Positions 3-40,852 of a stretch of 54,884 nucleotides of DNA are shown one piece after another. The notes beneath the pieces were generated by a model. It saw only the letters and a list, made by a program, of their open reading frames with translations. It was not told the origin of the DNA and did no database searches. Origin of the DNA: an uncultured Roseateles sp. (GTDB taxonomy: Bacteria > Pseudomonadota > Gammaproteobacteria > Burkholderiales > Burkholderiaceae_C); NCBI RefSeq assembly GCF_945956965.1, contig NZ_CAMFJS010000033.1:1-54884 (forward strand), written 5' to 3'. A program made the position numbers and the translations under genes. Numbering within the stretch: the stretch's first letter is position 1; each line of letters opens with the position of its first letter.

Positions 3-296
3 GTGGCCGGCAATCTGAGCTTGAACGGCACGCTCAAGCTGACGTCTTGGAACGGCTTTGTGGCGCAAAAGGGCCAGAGCTTCGACCTGCTGGACTGGGG
101 CACGCTGACAGGCACCTTCGCCGACATCGATGCCAGCGGTTTCAAGCTCGCCGCGGGGACGGCCTTGGACTACAGCCAGCTCTACACAAGCGGCGAGATC
201 AAGGTGGTGGCCGCTGCGGTGCCCGAGCCTGAGAGCTATGCCTTGATGCTCGCGGGGCTGGCGATGCTGGCTTGGCGCCGGCGCAAGCTGAGCTGA
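3..296 (+). CDS. PEP-CTERM sorting-domain protein, C-terminal part
   Basis: The reading frame is open at the left edge, so only the last 97 residues are visible. The end carries the PEP-CTERM signal: a VPEPESYALM motif, a hydrophobic helix rich in Leu, Ala and Gly, then the basic tail WRRRKLS before a TGA stop. In known systems this signal sends a secreted protein to an exosortase (EpsH-type) for cleavage and surface attachment or release. The preceding residues look like a beta-rich exported domain of unknown function. The N-terminus and signal peptide lie outside the window, and no exosortase gene is present here. Confidence 0.85.
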   Translation: MAGNLSLNGTLKLTSWNGFVAQKGQSFDLLDWGTLTGTFADIDASGFKLAAGTALDYSQLYTSGEIKVVAAAVPEPESYALMLAGLAMLAWRRRKLS

Positions 297-31337: not shown

Positions 31338-32306
31338 CTAGCGCGTCTTGGCCTCAATGCGCGCCCGCAGCTGCGGCAGCATCAGGATAGCCGCTTCGCG
31401 CCCGGCCTGGATGGAGCGGCGCCGCGCGGCGAAGTCTGCACTGCCCACGCCGTCAAGTTTGGGACGAATCACCACATCGGCCTCACTGAGCTCGAAGTTA
31501 TTGATGCTGCGGCCCATGATGGAAAAAGTCTGCATCAGCATGCGCATCGCATCACCCGGCGGGTTCTTGTCCGGCGGCGAAGAGATGTCCACCGCCAGCA
31601 CCAAATCGGCCCCCATCTGCTTGGCAAAGCGCACCGGCACAGGCGCCACCAAGCCACCGTCCACATACTCTCGGTTGCCAATCTTGACCGGCTGGAACAC
31701 CGCCGGCACCGAGCTTGAGGCTCGCACCGCCACGCCCGTGTCGCCGCGACGGAACAGCGCGCCCGAGCCGTCCGACAAATCAGTGGCAACAATGCCCAGC
31801 GGCAGCTTCATCTGCTCAATCAGCTTGCCGCCGGTCTTCTCGCGCACATAGCGCGCCAGCGCCTCGCCGCGGATCAGGCCGCGAGTCGGGAAAGCCCAAT
31901 CGGTGATGGCGCCCTCATCCATGCCGTCGGCCAGCGTGGCCAGTTCACGGCCTGTCATGCCATAGGCATACAAGGCCGCCACCAGGCTGCCGGCCGAGGT
32001 ACCAGCCACCAGGTCCACCTTGATGCCCTGCTCTTCCAACACCTGAATCACGCCGATGTGCGCAAAACCACGTGCCGCACCGCCGCCCAGCGCCAAGCCC
32101 AGCTTGGGTAAGACCGGCGGGAGTTTGGGTGCCGGCGCAGGGCTGGCGACAACCGGGCTGGGTGCCGGGGCCACCTCGGGCGCTTTGGTATGGGAAGTGC
32201 TGGAGCACCCGGCGAAAGCCAGGGCCGCCAACAACAAGCCACGGCGGCTGAATGAGGTGATGAAGGTGCGAGGGGAATCGGAAACAGGAGCGGAGAAAGA
32301 ATGCAT
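31338..32306 (-). CDS. Patatin-like phospholipase, lipoprotein
   Basis: The 322-residue protein has a lipoprotein signal (RGLLLAALAFAGCSS) after a basic leader with SRR. The patatin domain shows the oxyanion loop GLALGGGAARGFAHIG, the nucleophile elbow GTSAGS and the catalytic Asp in YVDGGLVAP. These form a Ser-Asp dyad that cleaves acyl esters of lipids. RssA-type bacterial members are similar. A Pro-rich linker of about 30 residues separates the lipid anchor from the enzyme. It is the first gene of a two-gene unit with the LON-domain gene. Confidence 0.88.
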   Translation of the reverse strand: MHSFSAPVSDSPRTFITSFSRRGLLLAALAFAGCSSTSHTKAPEVAPAPSPVVASPAPAPKLPPVLPKLGLALGGGAARGFAHIGVIQVLEEQGIKVDLVAGTSAGSLVAALYAYGMTGRELATLADGMDEGAITDWAFPTRGLIRGEALARYVREKTGGKLIEQMKLPLGIVATDLSDGSGALFRRGDTGVAVRASSSVPAVFQPVKIGNREYVDGGLVAPVPVRFAKQMGADLVLAVDISSPPDKNPPGDAMRMLMQTFSIMGRSINNFELSEADVVIRPKLDGVGSADFAARRRSIQAGREAAILMLPQLRARIEAKTR

Positions 32307-32687: not shown

Positions 32688-33734
32688 ATGAAGCTAGGTT
32701 TTCCCCACTCCATCCAGAGCCTGCTCCGCACGGGCACGCTACGCGCGTTGCTGACGCTTGTCCTGGCCAGCACGGGCTGGGCCGGCATGGCACAAGCCAC
32801 GCCGCTCATCAGTGTCAGCGCCTCGAAGTCCAGCGTGCATGTGGGCGAAGTCTTCACCATTTACTTCGACATCAGCGGCTTCAGCCCGGCGGCCGGCAAT
32901 TCGCTCAGCGGTTTCGACATCAATGTCTTGAACAATGCCGCCCTCGCGGGCTTGGGCACCGTCAGCTTCATCGACCCGGCCAGTGCCATCAATCAGCTCG
33001 ACATTGACGAACTGGGGTCGCTGGGCTTCTTCGGCGATGCCACCCAAGGCGCGGGCATGGTTGATGCCGTTGGCTTGTCTGGCAATAGCACCGCGGTGCT
33101 GGACGCGGAACAAGCCGACAGCTTCCGCTTCCTGAGTCTGAGCTTCACTGCCTTGGCGGCGAGCAGCGGCGCCGAGTTTGCGATCGATTTGAGCGACCCC
33201 GGCATGCTGTTCTTGGACAGCCGCGGCCGGCTGATGGAAGTGGACTACCAGTCAGCCCGCGCGGTGGTGGCCATCACCGAGGGCGGCGGCGGGCAAGTAC
33301 CCGAGCCAGCCAGCTTGGCGCTGGTGGCCTTGGCCTTGGCCGGCCTGGGCCTGAGCCGCCGCAAGGGCAAGCAAGTCGACAGCGCAGGCAAGACCCGACC
33401 CTCCGTGAGGGCCATCCGGCTACTCGGCCTGGCCAGCGCTGCCTTCGCGGTGGGCCAGGCCTCGGCGCAGACCAGCAATCCACCACCGCTTGCAATCGCG
33501 GCATCGGCACCGGCCGCCACGGCGGTTGCCAAAGGCACGCCGATTGAGGTCGTGCTGCTGCAAATCGCAGGCTCGCGCGCCAAGGTGCGGGCGGTGGAAG
33601 ACGGGCGTGAGTACTGGATCACCACAGCCCAGCCGCTGCCGGCCGACAAGCTCGGCGGCCGCCTGCAGGGCCAAGCCCATGCGCGCGGCGACACCATCTT
33701 TGTCGCCGCCCCTGTTTTCCTCAGCAAACCCTGA
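32688..33734 (+). CDS. Cohesin-like PEP-CTERM protein with an extra C-terminal exported domain
   Basis: This 348-residue frame has three parts. A signal peptide ends near MAQA. Residues about 38-200 resemble a cohesin-type beta-sandwich: SVHVGEVFTIYFDISGFS, LSGFDINV, FRFLSLSFTALAA. Residues 204-228 are a full PEP-CTERM signal (VPEPAS, hydrophobic helix, SRRKGK). Instead of a stop, 120 more residues follow, beginning with a second signal-peptide-like stretch (IRLLGLASAAFAVGQASAQ) and a small beta-rich domain. A GTG at 33405 could start that part separately, but it has no ribosome binding site. AGGAG precedes the ATG. It leads a tight operon with a lipase-like and a dockerin protein. Confidence 0.78.
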   Translation: MKLGFPHSIQSLLRTGTLRALLTLVLASTGWAGMAQATPLISVSASKSSVHVGEVFTIYFDISGFSPAAGNSLSGFDINVLNNAALAGLGTVSFIDPASAINQLDIDELGSLGFFGDATQGAGMVDAVGLSGNSTAVLDAEQADSFRFLSLSFTALAASSGAEFAIDLSDPGMLFLDSRGRLMEVDYQSARAVVAITEGGGGQVPEPASLALVALALAGLGLSRRKGKQVDSAGKTRPSVRAIRLLGLASAAFAVGQASAQTSNPPPLAIAASAPAATAVAKGTPIEVVLLQIAGSRAKVRAVEDGREYWITTAQPLPADKLGGRLQGQAHARGDTIFVAAPVFLSKP

Positions 33735-33760
33735 GCCCCCTCGACTCAAAGGACGCCATC

Positions 33761-35287
33761 ATGATGAAGACCTTTGTGCAGGCAGGCGCCAGCCTGACCC
33801 TGCTAGCCACCGGCGCCTGCGCGCTGGCGCAGACCACCTCGCCCTTTGCCCCGCCCGAGCAGGACATGGGCAAATACGTCATCAACTCCGGTGCGGGCCT
33901 GGACACCGGCTGCACCTACCGCGGCGGTGGTCCACTCGTGGTGCGCTTCAAGGTGCCGGCCCCCGTCAATGAGACCCAGCTCGATGGCCAGGGCAAACTG
34001 AAAGATCCGGGCAAACTCGTCGCCGACAAGGTGGTGGGCGCGCGCGCCAAGATTTCCTTCCCGGTCTACGACATTGACGACAAGGCCGTCACCGACGGCA
34101 CCTACGCCCCCGAGATCGATAACCTTTCCTGGAACGGCACCTTCATCAAAACCCTGTCCGGTTTCAACAACCAATGGGTGAATGATTCCTTCGAGGTCGA
34201 CATCGGCGAGGTCAAATTCGCCAGCCCGAGCAATCCGGGCGTGGTGAACGAATTTCAGGTCGACATCGACACAGCCAATGTCGGCAACGGTGAATACTGG
34301 TGCATGGCCATCGACTGGGTCGGCATTGAATTCGATGCCGCCTACCCCTTTGCCCTGATTCACGGCATCGCTGCCAAAGACAGCACCTGGGACGCCGCCG
34401 AGGCACCCGGCGTGCTCGACACCATGGACAAGAGCGGTGCGCTTTACAAGCGCTTCTTCACCGCCAACCGCAATGGTGCGGTGATGACGAATGCGGCGGA
34501 CCTGAAGGGCCAGATTGCGAGCTATCTGGATCAGGTCAAGGCCAAGAAGGTCAATCTGATCGTGCACAGCAAGGGCGGGCTGGACTCCCAAGCCATGGCC
34601 GTGCTGAGCCCGCCGGAATTTGAAGTGCTGTCGCTGGGCACCTTGTCCACCCCGCACCGCGGTTCGGTGGTGGCTGACCTGACCCTCTTGCAACGCGCGC
34701 TGGCCAGCATCTACGAAGGCAATGGCCAAGACCCCAATGGCTATGCCCGCCGCTTTGTGGACAGCACCACGGCCGGCATTGCCAGCGGTTTTGGCGCCGG
34801 GCCCCAACCTCCGGGTCTGAACGACCTGACCACACAGTCGGCCAATCAGGCGATCTCAGCCGGCTTGCGCGGCAATGTGGGCAATACCTTCACCATCGGC
34901 GCGGACGCCGGACCCAACTGCAGCCGCGAGCCCAGCAATGGCGAAATCGATCCGATGAACCCCATCTCCGGAGTACCCATCTTCGGCAACTACACCTACA
35001 ACGCGCTGCGTCTGGCCTATATGACCATTTGCAACTTCAGCTCGGCCGTGCAGCTGAGCTTCGAGGTGCTGCCCAACTTTGACCCATCGGCCCCGCCCAT
35101 CACGGTGCTGACCTACCAGACGGTGCTGAACGCCAGCGCCAGCGCCAACGATGTGGTGGTGGCCTTGCCCAGCGCCAACCCGGGCTGGGGCACGCCACTG
35201 GGCAACCAGAACAGCATCAACCACTCGACGGTCAAGAACGGCGGCAATGTGCGCAAGATTCTTGATGAAACCATCAAACTGCGCTGA
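33761..35287 (+). CDS. Exported alpha/beta hydrolase, lipase-like
   Basis: The 508-residue product has a signal peptide ending near ALAQ. About 190 residues of beta-rich sequence precede the hydrolase domain, which shows the oxyanion segment FALIHGIAAKDSTWD, the nucleophile elbow VNLIVHSKGGLDSQ (Ser about residue 269) and THR in STPHRGS. A late His in SINHSTVKNGG may complete the triad. This is the pattern of triacylglycerol lipases and related esterases acting outside the cell. Cysteines in GCTYRGG and NCSREPS may form disulfides. It lies 26 bases after the cohesin-like gene and 13 bases before the dockerin gene. Confidence 0.82.
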   Translation: MMKTFVQAGASLTLLATGACALAQTTSPFAPPEQDMGKYVINSGAGLDTGCTYRGGGPLVVRFKVPAPVNETQLDGQGKLKDPGKLVADKVVGARAKISFPVYDIDDKAVTDGTYAPEIDNLSWNGTFIKTLSGFNNQWVNDSFEVDIGEVKFASPSNPGVVNEFQVDIDTANVGNGEYWCMAIDWVGIEFDAAYPFALIHGIAAKDSTWDAAEAPGVLDTMDKSGALYKRFFTANRNGAVMTNAADLKGQIASYLDQVKAKKVNLIVHSKGGLDSQAMAVLSPPEFEVLSLGTLSTPHRGSVVADLTLLQRALASIYEGNGQDPNGYARRFVDSTTAGIASGFGAGPQPPGLNDLTTQSANQAISAGLRGNVGNTFTIGADAGPNCSREPSNGEIDPMNPISGVPIFGNYTYNALRLAYMTICNFSSAVQLSFEVLPNFDPSAPPITVLTYQTVLNASASANDVVVALPSANPGWGTPLGNQNSINHSTVKNGGNVRKILDETIKLR

Positions 35288-35300
35288 GCCAGGAGCCATC

Positions 35301-37037
35301 ATGAGCTTGATTCGTCGCCACCCATTTCCTTCACTTCCGTCGCTGCGGCTCTCCACCCTTTGCCTGGCGCAAGCCCTGGCACTGGGCATGAGCCTGCTGG
35401 CGCCCGCTGCCCAAGCGCAGAACACCGGCCTGGTCAACGCCATGGCCACCAACACCCATGCCGGGCCCATCACGGCCGGCGCTACCCAGCTGCGCCTGCC
35501 GATTGCAGTCTCGGCCTTCAACAGCCTGAAGCTGCAACTGATCCTGCCAGTGAGCGGGGCAAAAATCAGCCTGATCGACCCACAAGGCACGGTGGTGATC
35601 GCGGCCGATGACCCACGCATCAGCTTTCTGGACGGCGCCAGCCTGACACCGCCGCTACCAGGCGGCCTGTTCATCACGCCCGAGATCGCCAACCCGGTGG
35701 ACGGCAATTGGACCTTGCTAGCCACCTTCCCGCCCGCGCCCGTGCCCACCGTTGCACTGCTGAACCTCTACGCGCAGTCGCCCTTCCAGGTCGGCATGGT
35801 GCTGAGCGGACAAAGCTACCGGGTTGGCCAACCGGTGCCGCTGGGCGTGCTGGCCTTGAACCAGGGTCAGCCCATCCTGGGTCTGGCGCCCAACCTCACG
35901 CTCAAGAAAGACGGCAATCCGATTGCCAACGTCAGCGCGGTGGACAGCGGCCAAGCCGCTGACTTCGACGGCCTGGCCAACGACGGCATCTACAGCCGCG
36001 GCTACACCTTTAACCAGACCGGGCGCTACCAGGTCGACGCTCAGGTGGACATCCCCACTGCCGGCGGCGGCAATGTGCGACGCGCGGCCACCGGCTTTGT
36101 GGACATCGTGCCGGCCAACTTCACCTTTGGCTCAGTCAGCAGCTCGGTCACTCGCGGTGCCAACAACTGCATCAGCAAGCTCAATATCACGCTGACCGGC
36201 ACGGTCGCCCTGCCCGGCACCTACAGCACGGCGGCCACCCTGCTCGGCCCCAATGGTGCCGCCAGCGGCAGCCTGCTCAAGCGCGCCAACACCACGCTGG
36301 CGGCGGCCGGGGCTTTGTCGTCCACCGTGTCATTCAGCTCGACCGAGATCCGCCAGCATTTCAGCGAAGGCGGCAGCTTTGTCGTCGAGCCGCTGGACCT
36401 GCTGGCCTTCGCGGGCGCCTCGCCACAGCTGGAAATGCGCCGCAACAATGCGCTGAGCTTCAGCGGCATGCCGCTGGAACAGTTCTGCGCCGCCGCCATC
36501 GAAGTGGCCAATGGCGCCACCGTCAGCCCGGTGCTGCGAGGCAGCCATATCGGCCAGCTGGACTTCAGCCTGCCACTGCGCGTGATCAACGCCGGCAACT
36601 ATCAAATCTCCTTCAAGGTGATTGACGCGCAAGGCGCAGAGGTGGGCCAGTTCGGCCTCAGCCGCGCACTGGCCGCCAACAGCACGAACGCCATCACCGC
36701 CACGGTGCTGGCCGACAAGCTGCAGCGCAGTGACGGGCCTTACCGCATCGAGTCGGTGCTGGTGGTGGGCGGCGGCAGCACGGCGCAAGCCTCGCGGGTG
36801 CCGGTGGCCGCCAGCAGCATCTCACGCTGGCAGTATTACCCCACCATCACCGGCGACCTCAACGGCGATGGCAGCGTGAACCCCGCCGACCGCGACCTCT
36901 TGATGCAGTACCGCGGCCAAAGCCCGCTGATCCCGGGCGACCGCCGCGACCTCAACGGTGACGGCAAGATCGATCTGCAAGATGCCCGGCTTTTGATCCA
37001 GCGCGCTTGTACGGCGCCCAACTGCCCGCGCAACTGA
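35301..37037 (+). CDS. Exported beta-sandwich protein with C-terminal type I dockerin
   Basis: The 578-residue protein starts at ATG 35301 after AGGAG. A signal peptide ends at APAAQAQ. Two or more Ig-like domains follow; ISLIDPQGTVV and the DGLANDGIYS turn are typical of secreted beta-sandwich domains. The last 60 residues hold two dockerin repeats, DLNGDGSVNPADRDLLMQY and DLNGDGKIDLQDARLLIQR, each with the twelve-residue calcium loop (Asp at 1, 5 and 12, Asn at 3). Dockerins bind cohesins; a cohesin-like protein is encoded two genes upstream. It is paralogous to the protein on the opposite strand downstream. Confidence 0.85.
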   Translation: MSLIRRHPFPSLPSLRLSTLCLAQALALGMSLLAPAAQAQNTGLVNAMATNTHAGPITAGATQLRLPIAVSAFNSLKLQLILPVSGAKISLIDPQGTVVIAADDPRISFLDGASLTPPLPGGLFITPEIANPVDGNWTLLATFPPAPVPTVALLNLYAQSPFQVGMVLSGQSYRVGQPVPLGVLALNQGQPILGLAPNLTLKKDGNPIANVSAVDSGQAADFDGLANDGIYSRGYTFNQTGRYQVDAQVDIPTAGGGNVRRAATGFVDIVPANFTFGSVSSSVTRGANNCISKLNITLTGTVALPGTYSTAATLLGPNGAASGSLLKRANTTLAAAGALSSTVSFSSTEIRQHFSEGGSFVVEPLDLLAFAGASPQLEMRRNNALSFSGMPLEQFCAAAIEVANGATVSPVLRGSHIGQLDFSLPLRVINAGNYQISFKVIDAQGAEVGQFGLSRALAANSTNAITATVLADKLQRSDGPYRIESVLVVGGGSTAQASRVPVAASSISRWQYYPTITGDLNGDGSVNPADRDLLMQYRGQSPLIPGDRRDLNGDGKIDLQDARLLIQRACTAPNCPRN

Positions 37038-37117
37038 GATCAAAGAGGCGTGGAGTGAAAGCAGCGCCCACTGGTCTGGCGGGCGAGTGAGTGAGTAAGT
37101 GATAGCAAGTGAAAGCG

Positions 37118-37158
37118 AACTCAGGGCCTACATACAGCCATGTAGACGGCCCTGAGTT
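37118..37158. terminator. Hairpin between converging exported-protein genes
   Basis: AACTCAGGGCC (37118-37128) pairs with GGCCCTGAGTT (37148-37158), and TACAT/ATGTA pairs inside. It includes the stop codon of the minus-strand gene. No T-run follows. Confidence 0.55.
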
Positions 37159-38365
37159 CAGCTGCCTGCTCAGCGCTCAAGACCACGTCTTGCAACTCGG
37201 CCACCAGGCCGGCGTCGCTGGGCCCGAAACGGATCAGGCCCACCCGGGCCAGCGCCGTCAAGGGCCCGCCTAGAGCGGCCAACTTGTCAGCTGCCACCCG
37301 CACCGAGATGCGCCCCGGTCCTGCCGCCAAGGTGCTGGAGGCGCTGACCATGCGGGAGCCCGCCGGCCCGAGCAGGCTGATATTGCAGGCATAGCTGCCG
37401 GCAGCGGCCACATTCACCGCGAAGTCAAACAGCACCGCGCGGGCACAAGGCCCTGGCGTTCCCGCTTGTTGCTCCAGCCGCAGCCCACTCAAGGCCAGTG
37501 CGGCCTTGGGCGCAGTGGCATGCAGCAGCAACTCGACCTGCAAGGGCTTGGCAGAAGCGCGAAATTGGTGCAGGGCCGTGAGCCGGTACGCCCCCGCGGC
37601 AGGCAGACTGAGGCGGGCAATCAGGGCACCGGGCTCATCGCTGATCAAGAGGCCGGTCGCGGTGCGCGCGCCGGCCTCGGCCTTGGGGCTGGCGACGAGT
37701 TCACCCCGGCTATCGCGCAGGCTCAGCTGCGGCGCTGTTGCCGTCCAGTTGGTCATCGGTACGCCGTAATCCTGACCTCGCAGCACCAGCAGCAAGGGTT
37801 CACCGGCGGCAATCGCCGTGCCCGAACTGCCGCCGGCACTCAGCACGCTCAGGCTCAGTTCAAAACGAGGCAAAACCCGGTAGCTGAGCAAGACCTGACC
37901 CTTGGCGCCCGCCGCGGGCTCAAGCTGCAAGCGCCAGCGCCCAGGCGCCGCATCGCGCACGGCTGGCAAGACGATGGCATCGCCCAAGTCGGGCCGCCCG
38001 GCATCGGCTTGCGGCGTTAACCCCAACTCGGCCGGCGTCTTGCGCCAAACCAGGGAACCCAGCGGATCGAAAAGGCTGATGGCCGCGAGCTTGGCCGTGC
38101 TGCGCAGGGATGCAAACACGAGCCGATTTTCGGCCTCGCCCTGAACCTCAACGCTCAGGTTCAGCGGCCCGCCACCAGCCGGCAGCGCAGCGCTGAGCTG
38201 TAGCGACTTGATGGCTGCCGCGCTGCTGCTGGCCAGTTGCTGCTGCGCGGGGGCCGGGGCTTGTGCAAATGCATCCATACGGGGCCAAAGCGTCATGGCC
38301 AAGCCGCCCGCCCAGGGGCCGAACTGCCGGCGAGATACATGCTTGGCGAAAAACATGAGGTACAT
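37121..38365 (-). CDS. Tat-type exported paralogue of the dockerin protein, without dockerin
   Basis: The 414-residue protein from ATG 38365 has a twin-arginine-like leader (HVSRRQFGPWAGGLAM) ending near AFAQA. Its domains align in order with the dockerin protein on the facing strand: ISLFDPLGSLVW against ISLIDPQGTVV, then PGRWRLQLEP against DGNWTLLATF, then LSLRDSRGELVA before a GAYRLTA/GRYQVDA pair, and later GSYACNISLLGP against GTYSTAATLLGP. It ends without dockerin repeats in an Ala/Glu helix. Function is unknown. ATG 38389 and 38356 are other possible starts. It diverges from the acylase gene with 75 bases between. Confidence 0.75.
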   Translation of the reverse strand: MYLMFFAKHVSRRQFGPWAGGLAMTLWPRMDAFAQAPAPAQQQLASSSAAAIKSLQLSAALPAGGGPLNLSVEVQGEAENRLVFASLRSTAKLAAISLFDPLGSLVWRKTPAELGLTPQADAGRPDLGDAIVLPAVRDAAPGRWRLQLEPAAGAKGQVLLSYRVLPRFELSLSVLSAGGSSGTAIAAGEPLLLVLRGQDYGVPMTNWTATAPQLSLRDSRGELVASPKAEAGARTATGLLISDEPGALIARLSLPAAGAYRLTALHQFRASAKPLQVELLLHATAPKAALALSGLRLEQQAGTPGPCARAVLFDFAVNVAAAGSYACNISLLGPAGSRMVSASSTLAAGPGRISVRVAADKLAALGGPLTALARVGLIRFGPSDAGLVAELQDVVLSAEQAAELRAVYMAVCRP

Positions 38366-38440: not shown

Positions 38441-40852
38441 ATGACGAACACGCCCTCCCCCAAAAACTCCCGCCTGCGCCTGCTGCGCCGCAGTTTGGCC
38501 GCCCTGCTGCTGATCCTGCTCCTGCTCATTGCCGTGGCCTGGGCGCTGTTGCGCGCCAGCCTGCCTCAACTCAACGGCAAGATCACGCTGCCGGGCCTGC
38601 AAGCGCCCCTGAGCATAGGCCGCGATGCCCTGGGCACGGCCGTGCTGCAGGGCGAGCACCGGCTCGACCTGGCGCGCGGCCTGGGATTCGTGCATGCGCA
38701 AGAACGCTTTTTTGAGATGGACCTGACGCGCCGCTCGGCCGCGGGTGAGCTCTCCGCCCTGTTCGGCGCCAAAGCGCTGGAGCGCGACAAACAGCGCCGC
38801 ATGCACCGCATGCGTGTGCGCCTGACGGAGCGCTTTCAGCAGCTCAGCGCCGCGGACCAAGCCCTGCTGACCGCCTATGCCAGCGGCGTCAATGCGGGCC
38901 TGGCAGCGCAAACGCTGCGACCCTGGCAATACCTCTTGCTGCAGGCCAAGCCGCAGCCCTGGACCGAAGTGGACTCGCTGCTGGTGGTGGCCGAGATGTT
39001 CTGGATGCTGCAAGGCAGTGGCATCGATGCCGGTTTTGAGCGTGCCCGTCTGCGCGAGCTCAGCGGCGACGCCTTGTTCGACTGGCTCAACCCGCGCGGC
39101 GGTCACTGGGACGCAGCGCTTGACGGCAGTCGCTTAGCCCCGCACGGCGCCATGCCCACGCCCGAGGTCTTTGACCTGCGCAAGCAGGCGGCGGCGGCCA
39201 AGCAGGCCTTGAGCTTTCAACAAGAAAACGGGAGTGGCTTTGAGCTTGGGCTGGTGGCCAGCATGGCTGGTGGTGAGGCGCCCGTCATCGGCAGCAATAA
39301 CTGGGCCGTGTCCGGCCAGCGCAGCGCCCACGGTGGCGCCCTGCTGGCGGACGATATGCATCTGGGCTTGTCGGTGCCCAGCATCTGGTACCGGGCCCAG
39401 TTGCAGCTGGGCCAAGGTGGCAGCAGCCTGCGCGGTGCCGGGCTGACGCTGCCGGGCATGCCCAGCCTGGTGGTGGGCAGCAATGGCCGGCTGGCCTGGG
39501 GCTTCACCAATGCCTATGGCCAGTGGTTTGACTGGATCAAGCTGCCCGCCAATCTACCCACCGAGCAGATTCAGCGTTATCAGGAAACCATCGCCATCAA
39601 GGGCGAAGCGGCGCAGACGCTGGAAGTGCGGGAATTCAAAGGCGCGCCCATCGTGCGCGAAGACAAGGCCAGCGGCCAGGCCTACGCCCTGCGCTGGATC
39701 GCCCAGCGCGGCGAGGCCTTCAATCTGGAGCTGGACCGCATGCTGCAAGCCGGCTCGGTGGAGGAAGGCCTGCGCATTGCCCAGGCCAGCGGCCTGCCGC
39801 ACCAGAACATCTTGCTGGCCGACAGCCGCGGCGCCATCGCCTGGACCATTGCCGGCCGCCTCTGGCGCCAAGCCGGCGTGGCACAGAGTTATGCCCGCTT
39901 TCAGTCACCCGACAGCTCAGCCCCCGACTGGCTGCCCAGCGCGGACTATCCCGTCGTCAAGAACCCCAGCCAGGGCCAGTTGTGGACCGCCAATAATCGC
40001 CAGATCGGCGGCGAAAGCCTGGGCGATGGCGGCTTTGACCTCGGCGCGCGCGCGCGCCAGATCCGCGACCGCCTGAGCGAACGTGCCCAGCACGACGAGC
40101 AAAGCCTGGCGGCAATCCAGCTCGATAACGAGGCCCGCTTCATGCAAAGCTGGGCTCAGCGCCTGGCCAAGGTGCTGGCGCGCAGCCAGCGCCACGACGA
40201 AGTGGCCGCCATGCTGCAAGCCTGGAATGGCCGCGCCGACGCAGACCAAGTGGCCTACCGCCTGGTGCGTGCGGTTCGCCTGAAAACGCTGGACCGCCTC
40301 TGGGCCGCCTGGACACAGCCCTTCCTGGGCGAGCAGCAGCTCGACGACAAGCGCCGCACGCCCTGGCGCGCCCAGTTCGAATACAGCGCCAGCGCCGCGC
40401 TGGATCAGGCCCCAGCCCATCTGTTGCCGCCCGCCTACGCCAGCTGGGACGCCCTGTTGCTGAGTCAGCTGGACATTGCCATCAACGAACTCACCCTGGG
40501 CGCCACCGAGCCGTTGGGCCAAGCCACCTGGGGCCGGCACAATGCCAGCAAGATCCAGCATGTGCTGTCCAAGGCCATCCCCGCGCTGTCGATCTTTCTG
40601 GACATGCCCAGCCAGCCACAAGGCGGCGACAGCAATCTGCCCCATGTGGCCCAGCCGGCCTTCGGCCAGTCACAGCGCCTGGTGGTGGCGCCGGGCCGCG
40701 AGGCGCAGGGTTTGTTGAGCATGCCGGGCGGTCAAAGCGGCCATCCGCTCTCGCCCTACTACGGCGCCGGCCACGCGGCCTGGGCCGCAGAAGAGCCCAC
40801 GCCTTTGCTGGCCGGCAAGCTGACTCAGTGGCTGGAGGCCAGGCCGCAATAA
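38441..40852 (+). CDS. Penicillin acylase family protein (N-terminal nucleophile amidase)
   Basis: The 803-residue protein starts at ATG 38441 with a basic, membrane-spanning leader (RRSLAALLLILLLLIAVAWALL). The S45 peptidase layout is clear: DLARGLGFVHAQERFFEMDLTRRSAAGEL in the alpha part, a linker, then the processing site GSNNWAVSG whose Ser (about residue 285) becomes the nucleophile after self-cleavage, and later GMPSLVVGSNGRLAWGFTNAYG. Family members hydrolyse penicillins or acyl-homoserine lactones in the periplasm; quorum quenching is possible. The frame is open upstream to 38237, but that part overlaps the divergent gene. Confidence 0.9.
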   Translation: MTNTPSPKNSRLRLLRRSLAALLLILLLLIAVAWALLRASLPQLNGKITLPGLQAPLSIGRDALGTAVLQGEHRLDLARGLGFVHAQERFFEMDLTRRSAAGELSALFGAKALERDKQRRMHRMRVRLTERFQQLSAADQALLTAYASGVNAGLAAQTLRPWQYLLLQAKPQPWTEVDSLLVVAEMFWMLQGSGIDAGFERARLRELSGDALFDWLNPRGGHWDAALDGSRLAPHGAMPTPEVFDLRKQAAAAKQALSFQQENGSGFELGLVASMAGGEAPVIGSNNWAVSGQRSAHGGALLADDMHLGLSVPSIWYRAQLQLGQGGSSLRGAGLTLPGMPSLVVGSNGRLAWGFTNAYGQWFDWIKLPANLPTEQIQRYQETIAIKGEAAQTLEVREFKGAPIVREDKASGQAYALRWIAQRGEAFNLELDRMLQAGSVEEGLRIAQASGLPHQNILLADSRGAIAWTIAGRLWRQAGVAQSYARFQSPDSSAPDWLPSADYPVVKNPSQGQLWTANNRQIGGESLGDGGFDLGARARQIRDRLSERAQHDEQSLAAIQLDNEARFMQSWAQRLAKVLARSQRHDEVAAMLQAWNGRADADQVAYRLVRAVRLKTLDRLWAAWTQPFLGEQQLDDKRRTPWRAQFEYSASAALDQAPAHLLPPAYASWDALLLSQLDIAINELTLGATEPLGQATWGRHNASKIQHVLSKAIPALSIFLDMPSQPQGGDSNLPHVAQPAFGQSQRLVVAPGREAQGLLSMPGGQSGHPLSPYYGAGHAAWAAEEPTPLLAGKLTQWLEARPQ

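Follow-up and report, generated by a model that had tools for sequence, protein, structure and literature searches.

A PEP-CTERM-tailed cohesin and its neighbouring dockerin protein as a probable split surface anchor in Roseateles and related bacteria

The window analysed here, a stretch of 54,884 nucleotides from an uncultured Roseateles sp. (contig NZ_CAMFJS010000033.1 of assembly GCF_945956965.1; GTDB family Burkholderiaceae_C), contains a small operon whose first and third genes likely encode a dedicated cohesin-dockerin pair serving as a split surface anchor, and not a cellulosome. This reading is based on the gene order, the domains, the predicted fold, the genome-wide pairing of such cohesins with dockerins, the co-occurrence of exosortases and the co-variation of cohesin and dockerin types. 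The operon comprises three intact open reading frames (ORFs) in the same direction (+), separated by 26 and 13 bases, just as a preliminary description made from the letters alone had it. Gene 1 (32688-33734) encodes a protein of 348 amino acids with a signal peptide (by inspection), a cohesin domain, a PEP-CTERM sorting tail, a second signal-like segment and a C-terminal beta domain; gene 2 (33761-35287) encodes an exported lipase-like alpha/beta hydrolase of 508 amino acids; and gene 3 (35301-37037) encodes an exported protein of 578 amino acids with several beta domains and a dockerin at its C-terminus.

The cohesin domain, the only one in gene 1, covers residues 38-200 (32799-33287, +). 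The structure model and a fold search predict a beta sandwich of the cohesin fold, and the cohesin structures of OlpA and OlpC are among the matches listed, a family missing from those matches not being thereby excluded. The cohesin assignment had been regarded as the weaker one in the preliminary description, which named the structure of these residues as a check; the predicted fold, the pairing and the co-varying types now speak for a cohesin, and the part that did not hold is the match to Pfam, given below with the other contrary points. The domain is followed by the PEP-CTERM tail (residues 203-225; 33294-33362, +; Pfam PF07589, E 1.4e-6), in which the PEP motif, the hydrophobic helix and the basic cluster are all present. 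The genome encodes exosortase, with two matches, and has 47 PEP-CTERM matches. The exosortase signal first noticed is thus supported; its internal position, and the second signal-like segment and small domain behind it, had gone unremarked.

The dockerin of gene 3 is of type I (residues 518-568; 36852-37004, +; Pfam PF00404). It scores 36.2 bits with Dockerin_1 against a cut-off of 22.9, and its two calcium loops of the form D-x-N-x-D-G-x-(V/I)-(N/D)-x-x-D are complete, in agreement with the earlier view that this domain is clear from the sequence; a C-x4-C tail (CTAPNC) follows. The rest of the protein is modelled as a series of beta domains, judged Ig-like on visual inspection, and matches the NCBIfam entry 'choice-of-anchor X' (28.5 bits, cut-off 25). 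In profile searches the Roseateles genome itself yielded two dockerins and two cohesins past E 1e-4, and no match to PF00963 (Cohesin); the second pair of this genome lies at C3:107681-108582. A cellulosome was considered and rejected: gene 1 has a single cohesin, there is no scaffoldin, and Pfam finds no enzyme domain in gene 3.

To study how the two domains pair, 250 genomes sampled from the family were searched, with a pair defined as a dockerin within 6 kb of a cohesin. PF00404 matched at 43 places in 31 of these genomes, and the regions around 40 of the places were examined. From them, 20 PEP-tailed genes near dockerins were picked by eye and combined with gene 1 of the window into a profile (A1); of 19 such PEP-tailed neighbours scanned, five exceeded the Pfam Cohesin cut-off. 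Dockerins were searched separately over the same genomes (A6), and the counts from both searches are lower bounds, only part of the candidates having been scored in many genomes. With a cut for full-length matches that was set after inspecting the results (43 rows, ≥74 bits, start by profile position 26; below it the match is mostly to the PEP-CTERM end), at least 43 full-length PEP-CTERM cohesins were found, and a dockerin lay within 6 kb in 43/43, on the same strand in 40 of them. The cohesins outside the A1 build set were likewise all paired (22/22); six of these sat in regions first chosen for their dockerin, and 16 were found by the cohesin first, in 15 regions each of which contained a dockerin. 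When dockerins are counted instead, 43 of 64 places were paired. In addition, exosortase was present in all 28 genomes with a full-length PEP-CTERM cohesin, versus 106 of the other 222. Dockerin-like matches also occur within ORFs of more than 11,000 residues (L070, L071, L072, L073 and L074), some of them with repeats resembling YD/RHS repeats.

PF00963 itself matched at 36 places in 29 of the 250 genomes. Seventeen of these places belong to the 43 full-length cohesins, all 17 with a dockerin within 6 kb, and the remaining 19 have none. The tails of 15 of these 19 were inspected; 14 lack PEP-CTERM and one is PEP-tailed. Hence a dockerin is nearby for 17 of 18 PEP-tailed Pfam cohesins versus none of 14 untailed ones, with four further places not inspected. 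Thirteen of the 14 untailed cohesins (L132-L144, e.g., G239:C38:16520 and G208:C4:556545) lie at the C-terminal end of ORFs of about 800-1030 residues, and a scan of two of these ORFs identified both as secretins that carry TPR and STN domains; judging from their sequences, these 13 cohesins represent another kind within the family. Outside the family but within the same class, A1 matched in 22 of 369 genomes, the Roseateles genome counted, and 19 of 24 regions inspected there contained a dockerin. The pair of the window is therefore no isolated case, since many such pairs exist both in its family and elsewhere in the class, and the occurrence of tailed cohesins beside dockerin genes in so many related bacteria suggests that Gram-negative cells attach exported proteins to their surface by an anchor in two pieces. 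In some out-of-family regions (L108, L109, L112, L126 and L127) two dockerin genes surround one cohesin, and in L113 two cohesins follow one another; these six are small multi-member clusters.

The two domains also diverge in step. Across 49 cohesin-dockerin pairs the sequence distances correlate (rho 0.56), and a correlation of rho 0.39 remains for pairs whose cargo falls in different clusters; none of 2000 permutations reached either value. Three tail types are prominent among the dockerins, namely a C-x(3-4)-C tail as in the window, a loop 1 cysteine with a final cysteine, and a PGPSA tail, and the nearest cohesin with another cargo has the same tail type in 36 of 43 cases, compared with 17.9 in shuffles. 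The types were assigned by regular expression, except that L102 (type b) and L083 and L085 ('other', as the rule had them) were set by hand. Within the operons of the window type, the dockerins of Massilia and Pseudoduganella have no C-terminal cysteine tail. Since the pairs are related by descent, this co-variation shows that both domains travel and diverge together, and not that they bind.

Several observations weigh against a split anchor. The gene 1 protein has no match to Pfam Cohesin (PF00963), the window-type cohesin profile alone retrieved no PDB chain at E ≤ 10, and the model of gene 1 is of moderate quality (mean pLDDT 67.3, pTM 0.47, with blocks of 44 to 91 in the cohesin); in the gene 3 model, the dockerin is poorly predicted. 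Twenty-one of the 64 dockerin places have no listed cohesin nearby, among them very large ORFs, short contigs and ordinary genes, and in L057 the paired dockerin is not C-terminal. One PEP-tailed Pfam cohesin of 218 residues (L146, G056:C1:4245885) has no dockerin within 6 kb, nor was one found in its genome by the A6 search, and five of the 24 out-of-family cohesin regions (L117, L118, L119, L122 and L124) have no dockerin. The small P values overstate the evidence, because related genomes are not independent. Finally, 122 residues follow the PEP-CTERM of gene 1, which is thus not at the extreme C-terminus; in the part of their article on which we draw, Haft et al. (PMC1569441) give fewer than 10 residues after the motif in 87% of cases and consider that long-tailed ones may be non-functional.

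Part of this could be accounted for if the cohesin-like sandwich and the calcium EF-hand module did not bind each other at all and shared operons simply as exported surface proteins. The divergence of the window cohesin, the unpaired dockerins and the PEP-tailed Pfam cohesin that stands alone would fit such a view, but without an interaction it is hard to explain why the pairing is complete for tailed cohesins (43/43 and 22/22) and absent for untailed ones (0/14), or why the two domains co-vary despite unrelated cargo. We therefore consider it very unlikely.

A different objection concerns the tail. Downstream of a basic loop, gene 1 has a second hydrophobic, signal-peptide-like segment (about residues 240-260; 33405-33467, +), which appears in the model as a helix at 240-259 with low confidence, and then a small C-terminal domain of beta strands (predicted model; residues 284-345; 33537-33722, +) with pLDDT blocks of 77-90. 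This domain has no family match, the best Pfam hint being SH3_16 (E 0.14, under the cut-off), and a hidden Markov model built from the domain in 10 operons matched solely in those operons among the loci compared. The PEP-CTERM could then be non-working, the two helices forming a membrane hairpin that would keep the cohesin at the outward-facing side of the inner membrane, with gene 3 docked in the periplasm. The two adjacent predicted helices, the length of the extension, the degenerate motif (SEP) of L084 and the doubts raised about long-tailed cases (PMC1569441, in the part cited above) are in line with a hairpin; we nevertheless hold it to be unlikely, as in L081, a Rhodocyclaceae metagenome-assembled genome (MAG), the cohesin has a normal end after PEP-CTERM (position 346), the C-terminal piece is a gene of its own (367-669) with its own signal peptide by inspection, and the 17 A1 members that do not belong to window-type operons terminate shortly after the tail. 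Because L081 has both parts as separate genes, the window's gene 1 represents two exported proteins fused into one, in which sorting tail and second signal are both retained. The fused form is found in all nine complete copies of gene 1 aligned, and a frameshift or assembly artefact was rejected as its source because the frame is open through the junction in 9/9 copies.

Gene 2 had been described as an exported lipase-like hydrolase, and this was confirmed: a profile built from four orthologues finds triacylglycerol lipases in the PDB (E 2.3e-9, residues 192-306), and the putative Ser270, Asp464 and His488 have counterparts, by motif, in nine of nine operon lipases. The protein combines a putative Ser-Asp-His set with lipase-like sequence, and putatively has lipolytic activity; we take it to resemble the true lipases of the Pseudomonas/Burkholderia kind. 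The lipase itself was present in only four of the 250 family genomes. The search for the same three-gene order in related genomes, suggested at the outset as a check, was positive in eight of 15 related lipase loci, namely those of Roseateles oligotrophus, Paucibacter sp. KBW04, Pelomonas sp. Root405, Roseateles puraquae, a Roseateles MAG, Burkholderiales bacterium C2, Massilia sp. BJB1822 and Pseudoduganella violacea, three of these genomes overlapping with the family sample. The ninth, L081, is cut by the contig end and retains the final portion of the cohesin together with the lipase and dockerin genes.

This conserved order, with gaps of -4 to 104 bases between the genes in the eight loci and the window, raises the possibility that the lipase is the real cargo, gene 3 being an adaptor that grips it by its beta domains while the cohesin ties the resulting complex of lipase and gene 3 to the surface. 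However, neither a cohesin nor a dockerin was found in gene 2 by a Pfam scan, and for this reason the original idea of an assembly built around the lipase is unsupported. Moreover, no cohesin or credible dockerin was found in the stretches examined at six of the 15 lipase loci (L086-L088 and L090-L092), L087 and L088 giving only chance-level matches (E about 0.09) inside the lipase itself. We thus view the lipase as cargo as a rather doubtful possibility. L086, L087 and L088 are Vibrio/Enterovibrio loci with lipase relatives at 43-44% identity.

According to the split-anchor reading, gene 1 would be exported and its PEP-CTERM tail processed by the exosortase of the genome, and signal peptidase may cut it at the second signal. 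The released, surface-linked part would display one cohesin on the outer surface, where the calcium-loaded C-terminal dockerin of gene 3, exported separately, would bind it, the gene 3 protein being thereby held at the cell surface. The lipase would be made along with them and is probably active at the same place. The reading may extend further, and it is quite possible, if still somewhat doubtful, that exosortase-anchored single cohesins with adjacent dockerin partners are a general Gram-negative means of displaying unrelated proteins and that gene 1 is a polyprotein, which exosortase would cut at the internal PEP-CTERM and signal peptidase before the C-terminal domain, so that an anchor and another exported protein would arise in equal quantity. 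The cargo would then comprise, besides strings of beta domains, the C25 peptidase, GH10 glycosidase, metallophosphoesterase, metallo-beta-lactamase fold and propeller-like matches that were found in the 10 proteins scanned.

Among known systems, the closest likeness is to the single-cohesin anchoring scaffoldins of cellulosomes, such as OlpA and OlpC of C. thermocellum and ScaE of R. flavefaciens, which, like gene 1, join one cohesin to a surface anchor and receive a dockerin protein. They differ in that their anchors are SLH repeats or LPXTG, whereas here a PEP-CTERM/exosortase tail would do the anchoring, in a Gram-negative cell, every listed cohesin is accompanied by a nearby dockerin gene, and the partner is a string of beta domains and not a known enzyme; a classification of these scaffoldins is given in the part of PMC11557425 used here. 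With PEP-CTERM/exosortase (EpsH) sorting, gene 1 shares the motif, the hydrophobic helix and the basic cluster, but unlike the usual case its tail is internal, fused to a second signal-like segment and a domain, and the tailed protein would offer another protein a place to dock. Non-cellulosomal cohesin and dockerin modules were reportedly treated by Peer et al. in 2009. Such modules in ANME archaea (PMC9012536), in the 'planctosome' of freshwater Planctomycetes (PMC6461901) and in Saccharophagus (PMC2386152) likewise lie outside cellulose degradation, and the sections of these articles used here call their functions hypothetical or not known. Those sections deal with models that have several cohesins or a lamin-tail anchor, or with modules that are unpaired, and name no exosortase-anchored cohesin beside a dockerin gene. 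Exosortase and dockerin are treated in different sections of another article on ANME archaea (PMC5244752), as far as its excerpted text goes. In the one literature library searched, on which the novelty rests, we found no work joining PEP-CTERM with cohesin or dockerin.

If true, the split anchor would give a concrete job to some non-cellulosomal cohesins and dockerins, and some PEP-CTERM proteins of unknown function would be docking sites. Specific partners are predicted for individual genes in dozens of genomes, and the reading is therefore testable at once. It might also be a source of calcium-dependent, exosortase-based display parts for Gram-negative hosts.

Behind the operon, on the opposite strand, gene 4 (37121-38365, -) encodes a probably exported protein of 414 amino acids that lacks a dockerin and is distantly related to gene 3 (hhalign Prob 96.0 against the gene 3 family; BLASTP alone E 0.001), and homologues of it are found in four of the nine other operon loci. 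The operon is flanked by a patatin-like phospholipase gene (31338-32306, -) and a gene of the penicillin-amidase family (38441-40852, +), and the genes flanking L048 and L054 are different ones. At the left edge of the window (3-296) lies the end of a further PEP-CTERM protein.

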